Source: Synechococcus sp. AG-670-B23
Lineage (GTDB): Bacteria; Cyanobacteriota; Cyanobacteriia; PCC-6307; Cyanobiaceae
Length of the DNA stretch: 46,374 nt
Assembly (NCBI GenBank): GCA_003209165.1
Contig: QCSL01000015.1
Location: 1-46,374 of the forward strand
Reading direction: 5' to 3'
The translations under genes were made by a program, and so were the position numbers. Below the pieces are notes generated by a model. It saw only the letters and a list, made by a program, of their open reading frames with translations, made no database searches and had not been told where the DNA came from. Shown here one piece after another: positions 18,600-27,881 of the stretch. How positions within the stretch are numbered: position 1 is the first letter of the stretch; every line of letters starts with the position of its first letter.

Positions 18600-20234
18600 A
18601 TGGCAAAGCGCATCATCTACAACGAGAACGCCCGTCGCGCTCTCGAAAAAGGCATCGACATCCTTGCTGAATCTGTTGCGGTGACCCTGGGTCCCAAGGG
18701 CCGCAATGTGGTTCTGGAGAAGAAATTCGGTGCTCCCCAGATCATCAATGATGGTGTCACCATCGCCAAAGAGATCGAGCTTGAAGATCACATCGAGAAC
18801 ACCGGTGTTGCTCTAATCCGTCAAGCCGCCTCCAAAACCAACGATGCTGCCGGTGACGGCACTACCACCGCCACCATCCTGGCCCATGCCATGGTCAAGG
18901 CGGGTCTGCGCAACGTGGCTGCCGGTGCCAACGCCATCACTCTCAAGAAGGGTATCGACAAGGCCTCCGATTTCCTGGTCAGCAAGATTCAGGAAATGGC
19001 CAAGCCCATCGCTGACAGCAATGCCATTGCGCAGGTCGGCACCATCTCTGCCGGCAACGACGACGAAGTTGGCAAGATGATTGCCGATGCCATGGACAAG
19101 GTTGGCAAGGAAGGTGTGATTTCCCTTGAAGAGGGCAAGTCCATGGAGACCGAGCTCGAGGTCACCGAGGGCATGCGTTTCGACAAGGGCTATATCTCCC
19201 CTTACTTCGCCACCGACACCGAGCGGATGGAAGCCGTCCTCGACGAGCCCTACATCCTGCTCACCGACAAGAAGATCGGCCTGGTTCAGGATCTTGTCCC
19301 TGTGCTGGAGCAAATTGCCCGCACCGGCAAGCCTCTGCTAATCATCGCTGAGGACATCGAAAAGGAAGCCCTTGCCACCCTCGTTGTGAACCGTCTGCGG
19401 GGCGTGCTGAATGTGGCCGCTGTGAAGGCACCTGGTTTCGGTGATCGTCGCAAGGCCATGTTGGAAGACATGGCTGTTCTGACCAACGGTCAGCTGATTA
19501 CCGAGGATGCCGGCCTCAAGCTGGAGAATGCCAAGCTCGAGATGCTGGGCACCGCCCGTCGCATCACCATCAACAAAGACACCACCACCATCGTTGCCGA
19601 GGGCAACGAGGCGGCAGTCGGCGCCCGCTGCGAACAAATCAAGAAGCAGATGGACGAGACCGACTCCACCTACGACAAGGAGAAGCTGCAAGAGCGTCTG
19701 GCCAAATTGGCCGGCGGCGTTGCTGTGGTGAAGGTGGGTGCGGCCACCGAAACGGAGATGAAGGACAAGAAACTCCGTCTCGAGGATGCCATCAACGCCA
19801 CTAAGGCGGCTGTTGAGGAAGGCATCGTTCCTGGTGGGGGCACCACCCTGGCTCACCTGACTCCGGTTCTAGAGCAGTGGGCTACCTCCAACCTCTCCGG
19901 CGAGGAACTGATCGGCGCCAACATCGTGGCTGCGGCTCTCACCGCTCCGCTGATGCGCATCGCTGAAAACGCAGGTGCCAACGGCGCTGTAGTGGCCGAG
20001 AACGTCAAGGCTCGCGACGGTGCCGAAGGCTTCAACGCAGCGACCGGTGAGTACGTCGACATGCTGGCTGCCGGCATCGTTGACCCCGCCAAGGTGACCC
20101 GCTCCGGTCTGCAGAATGCTGCCTCGATTGCTGGCATGGTATTGACCACCGAGTGCATCGTGGCTGATCTTCCCGAGAAGAAGGAAGCAGCTCCTGCCGG
20201 CGGCGGCATGGGCGGCGGCGACTTCGACTATTGA
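18600..20234 (+). CDS. groEL: Chaperonin GroEL (groESL copy)
   Basis: This is a 544-aa full-length chaperonin with [19 protein letters not shown], the ATP-site [10 protein letters not shown], and [13 protein letters not shown]. The tail is [11 protein letters not shown] rather than a GGM repeat. It is 77 bases after groES and under the same CIRCE control. The last 15 bases (20220-20234) are a direct repeat of sequence at 27867-27881 and appear to be the insertion site of a mobile element, whose integration leaves the protein end intact. Confidence 0.97.
20220..20234 (+). repeat. Left attachment core (attL) inside groEL
   Basis: These are the last codons of groEL (Asp-Phe-Asp-Tyr-stop). They are identical to 27867-27881. 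The preceding bases are groEL and the following bases are element sequence. Confidence 0.82.
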
Positions 20235-20239
20235 GTCAC

Positions 20240-20254
20240 GACTTCGACTACTGA
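20240..20254 (+). repeat. Second, imperfect copy of the groEL tail
   Basis: GACTTCGACTACTGA differs from the left core by one base (TAT to TAC, both tyrosine) and begins 20 bases after it. It still encodes Asp-Phe-Asp-Tyr-stop, so it looks like a groEL end from another allele or species rather than chance. It lies just inside the element. Confidence 0.8.
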
Positions 20255-20316
20255 GGGTGACTGGGGTGCCTCTGGTGCCCCACCTCCCAGTATTCACACG
20301 GTTTTACACCATATAC

Positions 20317-20340
20317 GGGGCACTTCGGTGCCCCTTTTTT
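20317..20340 (+). terminator. Rho-independent terminator within the element, behind groEL
   Basis: GGGGCAC / GTGCCCC arms close a TTCG loop and are followed by six T residues (20335-20340). After insertion this can terminate groEL transcription, replacing the displaced terminator at 27936. Confidence 0.93.
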
Positions 20341-20350
20341 ATTGCCCAAA

Positions 20351-20444
20351 TGTGTGGTACATGGTCGGATTTGTGTGGAACTTTCGCAATAAGGCAGTGC
20401 TGATCTGACCTTCCTGATCGGCGGTGTGGAACTTTGTGTGGAAC
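20351..20444 (+). repeat. Cluster of four GTGTGGAAC-type direct repeats
   Basis: GTGTGGAAC occurs at 20373-20381, 20424-20432 and 20436-20444, with a variant GTGTGGTAC at 20352-20360. A further copy lies at 27760-27768, near the other end of the element. The position inside both ends suggests arm-type binding sites for the integrase or its directionality factor. Confidence 0.65.
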
Positions 20445-26207: not shown

Positions 26208-26355
26208 AAACACAGACGGAGAAGACTGTTTAGTGCATCATTTCTCCACTGGTTATCGCACGGTTACGATGTCGTATAGAACTAGTCACATAACCACCAC
26301 AGCAGTGCCACTGGATCCACTGCTGGAAATGCTGCTCAGACCGCTCAGAATCGCC

Positions 26356-27609
26356 TCAGGCGCTTTGTTCTGATGATCCTGCTGCTTCCCACAGCGGCGA
26401 CCACTTGGATCCTTTGCTTCGGTCTGAATAGGTCATGACCGTTGCTTTGCCTGCAGCTTGCTCTTCATTAATACGGACGTAGTGCTGGAGCATCACTCGT
26501 TCGTCATGTCCCGTGAATTGGCACAGAACAGTTGGATCAGCACCTTCGGCAATCCTGGTACTGATCATGTATTTGCGGGTTGAATAATATGTGTAATCTT
26601 CTCTGTCCAAATTGCAGTCAGGAAGAATTTTTTCTTTGAACGTATCGTAGATCTGTGCTTTTGAAATTTGTTTTCCAGTTTTTGGATCCACGAACATAGG
26701 TTGATCTGGTTTTGGTTTTAAGTTTGGATTTTCATGACTCCAGTCTTCGTACATTTGCTTGAGTTCTTTTATGTGATGACCATTTACGAATTCGCCATTT
26801 CTGATCTTGTTTCTCTTGGTGTCCCTGATCTTGATTTTGCTGATGGTGCAGGTGACCTCCTCGCCTTTGATCTTATGGATTTCGTCCCGAAACCCATTGA
26901 TACCAGACCATTTCATCTTTAATCCTTCTGACGTGTATCGCCAACCGACACTAGTGCTGATCAGGAAGAATTGATAAATTACTATCTTTGTTCGTTTGTC
27001 ATAACCATCATTCTTTTTGATCCATCTACGGTATGCAGCAGTAATTTTCTTGTAGTCACTAGGTGTAAATGGTGGACTTGCTGATTCGTCATCATCTCTT
27101 GCTGGAACGAAACTAGTTCGAGTTGGTATTTTGATTCTTTGATTCAAGAGATTGTTTTCAATTAAGTAGTCTCCAAACTTTCTAATGCTTTGCAGTTCGT
27201 TGAAGATTGTATCTTCTGAGGGAATTACTTTTTTGGTGTTTGCTCCATTAATGTGGTTTCCTTTTTTGTCGATACCAGTTGACAACCAACCTTCATCTCT
27301 CCTCCATTCTATGCAAAGACTCGCCAAATTATTGGGCAAGCCCCTAGATTTTTTGTAGCTCTTAAAATCACAAAATGCGTGGAATAGTTTTCCGATAACA
27401 TTCCTGATCCGATTAAGGTTGGGAAGAGATCCACCTTTCTCGCCATTTTTGTGTTTGAGTTCATAGATATCGATATACTTTCTTGAAAGTCGTTCTATGT
27501 TTTTTGGAGAAGTCGTACCAGTTGTGTTGCTTTGGTTCAGTACTTCTGCGAAGGTGTCATATGCATTCTTCTTGGTTAGTTCTTTATCTTCGGTTTTGAG
27601 AGATCGCAT
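26356..27609 (-). CDS. Tyrosine recombinase (integrase) of the element
   Basis: In this 417-aa protein the catalytic residues of the phage integrase family can be placed: Arg in GWRYTSEGLKMKW (R224), the box II segment YYSTRKYMIS (R345), His in TGHDE (H368) and the nucleophile in LQHYVRI (Y377). The N-terminal 180 residues would bind arm or core DNA. The gene lies 258 bases from the right repeat, as integrases usually do. It is more AT-rich than backbone genes. I infer that it inserts the element at the groEL end. Confidence 0.88.
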   Translation of the reverse strand: MRSLKTEDKELTKKNAYDTFAEVLNQSNTTGTTSPKNIERLSRKYIDIYELKHKNGEKGGSLPNLNRIRNVIGKLFHAFCDFKSYKKSRGLPNNLASLCIEWRRDEGWLSTGIDKKGNHINGANTKKVIPSEDTIFNELQSIRKFGDYLIENNLLNQRIKIPTRTSFVPARDDDESASPPFTPSDYKKITAAYRRWIKKNDGYDKRTKIVIYQFFLISTSVGWRYTSEGLKMKWSGINGFRDEIHKIKGEEVTCTISKIKIRDTKRNKIRNGEFVNGHHIKELKQMYEDWSHENPNLKPKPDQPMFVDPKTGKQISKAQIYDTFKEKILPDCNLDREDYTYYSTRKYMISTRIAEGADPTVLCQFTGHDERVMLQHYVRINEEQAAGKATVMTYSDRSKGSKWSPLWEAAGSSEQSA

Positions 27610-27759
27610 AGGACGATTCTCTCTACTGATATAGACCTTGCAGTGCCAAATCTTGCCAATCTTTCATCTTTTGACTTGATTAAAGATCCAAAGTTTGTCA
27701 GGAATTAATGTTTCCTTGTTCGCTTCTGCCATAAAAAAGTATCAACATATGGATGATTT

Positions 27760-27768
27760 GTGTGGAAC
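27760..27768 (+). repeat. Right-end copy of the GTGTGGAAC motif
   Basis: It is identical to the three copies at 20373-20444 and in the same orientation. Nearby, CCTTATTGCG (27795-27804) is the reverse complement of CGCAATAAGG at 20385-20394, giving an additional inverted match between the two ends. Confidence 0.6.
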
Positions 27769-27866
27769 GCTTTCCATCTTTGACCATTATAGTTCCTTAT
27801 TGCGAATAAATCAACCTGTTTACTGGGGTTTGGGCGGTTAAATAGTGCCTTATTGAGAATGCTTGG

Positions 27867-27881
27867 GACTTCGACTATTGA
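27867..27881 (+). repeat. Right attachment core (attR)
   Basis: It is identical to the last 15 bases of groEL at 20220-20234. It is followed by a GGGTGG/CCACCC hairpin and then a full terminator, consistent with the sequence that originally followed groEL. Confidence 0.82.

Follow-up and report, generated by a model that had tools for sequence, protein, structure and literature searches.

The groEL locus and its element-free counterparts

The window, the whole 46,374-nucleotide stretch that was analysed, belongs to a 2.27-Mb draft assembly of 100 contigs that is about 88% complete. Host gene names (groEL, secG, gpmI, guaA, ubiE, glyQ and the acyltransferase) were assigned by reading the sequences, not via a family search. 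The features at and downstream of groEL are listed below, with the evidence for each.

18600-20234, plus strand: groEL, named from sequence; ends in core 1 of the putative attL (15 bp, 20220-20234)
20220-20234, plus strand: core 1 (attL, groEL end), GACTTCGACTATTGA; repeat search
20240-20254, plus strand: core 2 (second copy of the tandem), GACTTCGACTACTGA; repeat search and order-wide tandem scan
20255-20345, plus strand: putative element-borne replacement of the groEL 3'-UTR, with an upstream hairpin and a terminator-like hairpin (20317-20334, then a T run); fold and terminator scan
20351-20360, plus strand: predicted P' arm-type repeat TGTGTGGTAC (one mismatch), 21 bp before the next; repeat geometry
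20372-20381, plus strand: predicted P' arm-type repeat TGTGTGGAAC; shared-9-mer test and geometry
20423-20444, plus strand: two predicted P' arm-type repeats 12 bp apart (GGTGTGGAAC, TGTGTGGAAC); shared-9-mer test and geometry
20534-20980, minus strand: possible ribbon-helix-helix protein (NikA-like and RelB-like matches, both below curated cut-offs); domain search
21026-22285, plus strand: cargo protein related to Synechococcus and Pelagibacter phage proteins (phrog_19197); PHROGs
22446-22994, plus strand: small cargo ORF with a weak match to phrog_12251; PHROGs
24741-25439, minus strand: TylF-type methyltransferase, cargo; domain search
25551-26213, minus strand: small serine recombinase of resolvase/invertase size, present in all three groEL elements; domain match
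26356-27609, minus strand: tyrosine integrase; Pfam PF00589 (2.6e-8), frame interrupted upstream by TGA at 27664-27666
27759-27768, plus strand: predicted P arm-type repeat TGTGTGGAAC; shared-9-mer test and geometry
27797-27806, plus strand: second repeat type TTATTGCGAA; repeat geometry (another, TTATTGAGAA, at 27850-27859)
27867-27881, plus strand: attR core, GACTTCGACTATTGA; repeat search
27882-27975, plus strand: putative displaced native groEL 3'-UTR with a terminator-like hairpin; homology to relatives and fold

The last codons and the stop of groEL form a 15-bp core, GACTTCGACTATTGA, of which an exact second copy lies at 27867-27881, as the first-pass annotation had described for a position 7.6 kb downstream. 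That annotation recognised two cores, but the window holds three; the third, GACTTCGACTACTGA, is positioned 20 bp after the first. Allowing up to two mismatches, the three core matches in the window compare with 0.13 expected, and this count was reached in 0/100 shuffles. The pattern GACTTCGACTAYTGA occurs in the 2.27-Mb draft only at the three window places and at no other locus.

The empty-site sample comprised groEL 3' regions from 18 of the 24 other genomes of the genus that match the core pattern (Synechococcus sp. AG-679-D13, considered below, was kept apart). None of the 18 carries an integrase match in its groEL stretch of about 6 kb. The predicted empty site, defined as the 300 bp up to and including 20234 joined to the 250 bp after 27881, aligns continuously in 11/18 (81.5-84.1% over 551-556 bp, blastn); in the remaining seven the alignment reaches the junction and blastn aligns nothing past it. 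The joining of 20234 to 27882 in strains without the element, which had been proposed as a check, is thus seen directly in the 11 and up to the junction in the others. The exact letters expected after the stop, TGGCGGTGC, did not recur: the relatives examined have homologous sequence there, not those letters. At the AG-679-D13 junction, one of the 18 stretches (L048) aligns about 60 bp beyond and another (L052) also passes. Because relatives without the element align to or across the predicted empty site, the element is placed at about 20235-27881, a predicted extent of 7.6 kb.

An extension of the element as far as secG, suggested by low GC, was rejected; the genes at 27976-31430 are present in relatives without the element. 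Within the 18 element-free stretches of about 6 kb, the 27976 gene was found in 12, the 28489 gene in five and the 30192 gene in eight. Low GC is no marker of the element's right end, because these genes, from 27976 to about 31430, are part of the ancestral neighbourhood. The small gene at 27976-28458, for which no family was identified, has homologues inside the AG-679-D13 element and a second related element, arranged tail-to-tail with the integrase, and may have been left behind by an older element.

Two further groEL ends were noted in other genomes. In one (G059, L091:2110-2209), an orphan stretch of about 95 bp of a groEL 3' end lies beside an acyltransferase gene, while groEL itself, whose end is close to a run of N, is on a different contig; the orphan may mark another groEL-end element, one that has a longer att. 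In the other (G148), the second core proved to be a second groEL end on another contig, and no element protein was found there.

Integrases, serine recombinase and cargo

The distal core adjoins a tyrosine recombinase, in agreement with the earlier annotation; its PF00589 match (2.6e-8) is above the cut-off. At E≤1e-20 this integrase is found in 3/400 sampled genomes of the family, its own included; the other two are Synechococcus sp. AG-679-D13 (G285) and a Cyanobium MAG (G082), and a scan of genome contigs returned the same two. Both of their elements lie at groEL, and in all three the integrase abuts the distal core, which supports the original proposal of an integrative element at the groEL 3' end. 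The Cyanobium element is distributed over two contigs, with groEL and the left end on C3 and the integrase and right end on C6; cut acyltransferase pieces at both contig ends suggest that the two meet. The residues R224, R345, H368 and Y377, which we take to be the catalytic residues of a tyrosine recombinase, are invariant among the three integrases. The PF00589 scores of the AG-679-D13 and Cyanobium proteins (26.7 and 21.8 bits) are both below the Pfam cut-off of 27.1.

A profile of the three integrases matched 6/400 genomes at E≤1e-35; the additional three (G225, G004 and G213) are more distant, lie beside a small gene and not at groEL, and have no tandem core. Their integrases (L081, L082 and L135) are near the 3' end of the small gene, with ubiE adjoining in L081 and L082. 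No distal repeat was found in L081 or L082, and L135 was checked for neighbouring genes only. In a tree of 22 integrases, gathered with the same profile, the three groEL integrases are grouped (99/99), with that of the window on a long branch. Its structure model has a mean pLDDT of 53, too poor for a fold search. A PDB sequence search with the integrase profile gave no match, the window integrase had no NCBIfam hit at E≤0.01, phage records contained no match, and plasmids gave one weak match, from Azospirillum.

The small serine recombinases of the three elements are 38-57% identical; the other integrase stretches (L081-L088) yielded no such recombinase. Their role in the groEL elements is probably multimer resolution or that of a helper. 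Near other small serine recombinases of the genus, no tRNA was found in 10 stretches (11 places).

The 21026-22285 protein matches phrog_19197 at 1.5e-47, with 30 phage records, and has weak DruA matches (Pfam 0.0088, PADLOC 1.2e-4). One phage relative of it is annotated as methylcarbamoylase mom. The AG-679-D13 and Cyanobium elements each encode a ParB-like N-terminus fused to a DNA methyltransferase (L039:7077-8588 and L106:3084-4610). A viral origin or viral packaging was considered and set aside: scans of viral_contigs confirmed no relative of the integrase among 49 pattern matches and none of the 21026-22285 protein among three, and the 34 viral stretches that contain one core had no tblastn hit with element or flank protein queries and look like chance occurrences.

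The tandem core, the arms and the groEL transcript end

Two cores 3-8 bp apart occur in 3/399 sampled genomes of the order, and these are the same three that carry the close integrase (3/400 family genomes; the two samples overlap only in part). The absence of the tandem elsewhere is informative for about half of the sample, because only 213/400 family genomes match the longer core pattern GGYGAYTTYGAYTAYTGA at all. In all three tandems copy 1 ends in TATTGA and copy 2 in TACTGA, while the spacers are GTCAC, TATAGG and TGGGC and the periods 20, 21 and 20. The tandem is on the groEL side in the window and on the integrase side in AG-679-D13 and Cyanobium. The groEL-side core of the Cyanobium element matches at only 13/15 bp, because there the element supplies the stop, TAG. 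A scan of viral_contigs for the tandem returned 0, and neither an excised circle nor an attP was observed as such.

Close to its two ends, each element carries a direct repeat of its own (TGTGTGGAAC in the window, GTTTGGAACA in AG-679-D13, GTGCTAAACA in Cyanobium). Among 500 single-base shuffles, 0, 0 and 2, respectively, had at least as many 9-mers common to both ends, and the repeat forms tested occur nowhere else inside the element stretches. On the P' side, the distances from the core to the first two arm sites are 96 and 117 bp in the window (from core 2), 105 and 126 bp in AG-679-D13 and 95 and 116 bp in Cyanobium, so that the groEL-side spacing is conserved if core 2 is taken as the reference point in the window. 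On the P side, core 1 is 108 bp from the arm site in the window, 108 and 96 bp from the sites in AG-679-D13, and 100 and 88 bp in Cyanobium. Since this spacing is conserved, the order that fits the attP best is arm, core 1, core 2, arm. The repeats at both ends of all three elements are probable integrase-binding sites, as predicted from sequence. A second repeat, TTATTGnGAA, lies in the integrase-side arm (27797-27806 and 27850-27859) and occurs twice in AG-679-D13 too; it is perhaps a site for a directionality factor.

The insertion separates groEL from its own 3'-UTR. An upstream and a terminator-like hairpin are present in 3/3 element-borne 3'-UTRs and in the 2/2 native ones that were folded (z -2.6 to -4.4), and the terminator-like hairpin is 62, 61 and 52 bp from the core in the window, AG-679-D13 and Cyanobium, respectively. 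The consensus terminator scan listed the element hairpin (20317-20334) and not the native hairpin of the window; with 11 sites against 6.8 in shuffles, a scan match alone is weak, and for these reasons a terminator function is argued from the fold and the shared layout. The groEL terminator noted earlier after the distal copy is accordingly upheld as regards homology to groEL 3'-UTRs and a terminator-like hairpin, and lacks a counterpart in the consensus scan.

We consider it very likely that the segment is a 7.6-kb tyrosine-integrase element at the groEL end, with a two-core attP of which either core is usable, and that it supplies groEL with a replacement 3'-UTR. A lambda-type integrase would insert the element (20235-27881) at the last 15 bp of groEL, presumably binding the arm repeats and carrying out strand exchange and excision. 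The attP would have the order arm, core 1, core 2, arm, with the cores 20 bp apart and about five probable integrase-binding repeats, and either of its copies would pair with the single groEL copy. Crossover at copy 1 would leave the tandem on the groEL side, as in the window; crossover at copy 2 would place it on the integrase side, as in AG-679-D13 and Cyanobium. We infer from these two arrangements that one enzyme may use either core. Because the core restores the coding end, the GroEL product would be unchanged, in line with the first-pass view that the protein is preserved, and the hairpin and terminator of the incoming 3'-UTR would take the place of those displaced. The two-core reading is supported by three elements only; their integrases form one clade, and so these are not independent inventions.

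In the attP of phage lambda, a single core is flanked by two arms, which together hold about five arm-type sites. The site described here is similar in its number of arm-type sites and its two arms, but has two cores 20-21 bp apart in place of one. A more specific proposal, to which we give slightly less than even weight, is that the attP has two interchangeable cores two DNA turns apart between lambda-like arms, that one integrase acts in either register and each genome records the register used, that the 3'-UTR mimic spares the transcript end of groEL, an essential heat-shock gene, and that selection has kept the doubled core, for example to tolerate target variation or to favour integration over excision. 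If the double core is functional, each genome with this att-site design would reveal the register in which its element integrated. No description of such a design was found in the open-licence literature.

The extra core could alternatively be a scar, in which a second element, since lost, left one core and 5 bp beside an element with a single-core attP. The groEL 3' end does look like a repeat target, and the gene at 27976, present at 12/18 element-free sites, has homologues within the other two elements, so older elements may have lived at groEL. For a scar, however, three genomes whose spacers are unlike would have to share both the 20-21 bp spacing and the T/C order; the arm and terminator distances fit best with core 2 as part of the window element, and the other 396 sampled order genomes, about half of which should be able to match the core pattern (as gauged from the family sample), have no tandem. 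We regard this origin as improbable. That the repeat is a chance occurrence, or a duplicated gene end with no element, has a negligible probability: the core is just 15 bp long, but the empty sites, the uniqueness of the core in the assembly, the shuffles and the restriction of the tandem to integrase-bearing genomes all contradict it.

The remaining alternatives concern the enzyme. Movement by the serine instead of the tyrosine recombinase is very unlikely; the former occurs in each of the three groEL elements as well as in the guaA element described below, but it has the size of a resolvase, matches the large-serine Recombinase domain only below the cut-off and varies in position, while the tyrosine integrase lies against the distal core in every groEL element, with arm-type repeats at both ends. 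Less easily dismissed, though still on balance doubtful, is that a genuine element has decayed in this genome and lost its mobility. An in-frame TGA (27664-27666) separates the ATG at 27609 from a possible start at 27732, in the part of the frame where the relatives have an N-terminal region; in lambda-type integrases this region binds arm sites. In addition, only a single P-arm repeat is clear in the window, whereas each relative has two. The outer cores, on the other hand, are identical, and the arms and the serine recombinase frame are present. The window copy may be inactive owing to the TGA, or the TGA may be a single-base error in a 100-contig draft.

Relation to known islands

The segment is a real element, a variant of known island types with an unusual double-core attachment site. 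The first-pass annotation considered a groEL end uncommon as a site, tRNA genes being usual; groEL 3' ends are already known as integration sites in staphylococci, where phage-inducible chromosomal islands (SeCISE48 and kin) insert there (PMC8125051), and groEL is also given as an island site in PMC5341023. As in the staphylococcal islands, insertion is at the groEL 3' end, the last bases are included in the att (18 bp there) and the product is unchanged (PMC8125051); hosts and cargo are different here, and the passage cited on those islands mentions no tandem core. Packaging and interference genes, a trait of the staphylococcal islands, had no PHROGs match among nine window proteins at E≤0.05.

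In picocyanobacteria, a tyrosine integrase that frequently has a small serine recombinase close by has been described upstream of tRNA-Phe or tRNA-Cys (PMC10187409). The present element resembles those islands in the kind of host, a divergent tyrosine integrase near a small serine recombinase, and variable cargo; it differs in its groEL site, with no tRNA nearby. The only tRNA in the window is tRNA-Val at 41844-41916, and none is present in L039 or L040. Tycheposons likewise combine a tyrosine recombinase with cargo in marine bacteria, but are bordered by tRNA genes (PMC10872708), unlike the window element. No groEL element in cyanobacteria was found in the open-licence literature. The element adds a protein-coding target to the tRNA-based islands of marine picocyanobacteria, and represents a convergence with the staphylococcal islands on groEL.

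A separate element was observed in another genome of the genus (G267, L125:1717-15265), at the 3' end of guaA and with a more distant tyrosine integrase and a serine recombinase. Its 15-bp guaA-end repeat, ATCGAGTGGGAATAG, lies at 1717 and 15251 of L125, with no tandem seen, and its presence hints that the use of gene 3' ends is a wider habit.
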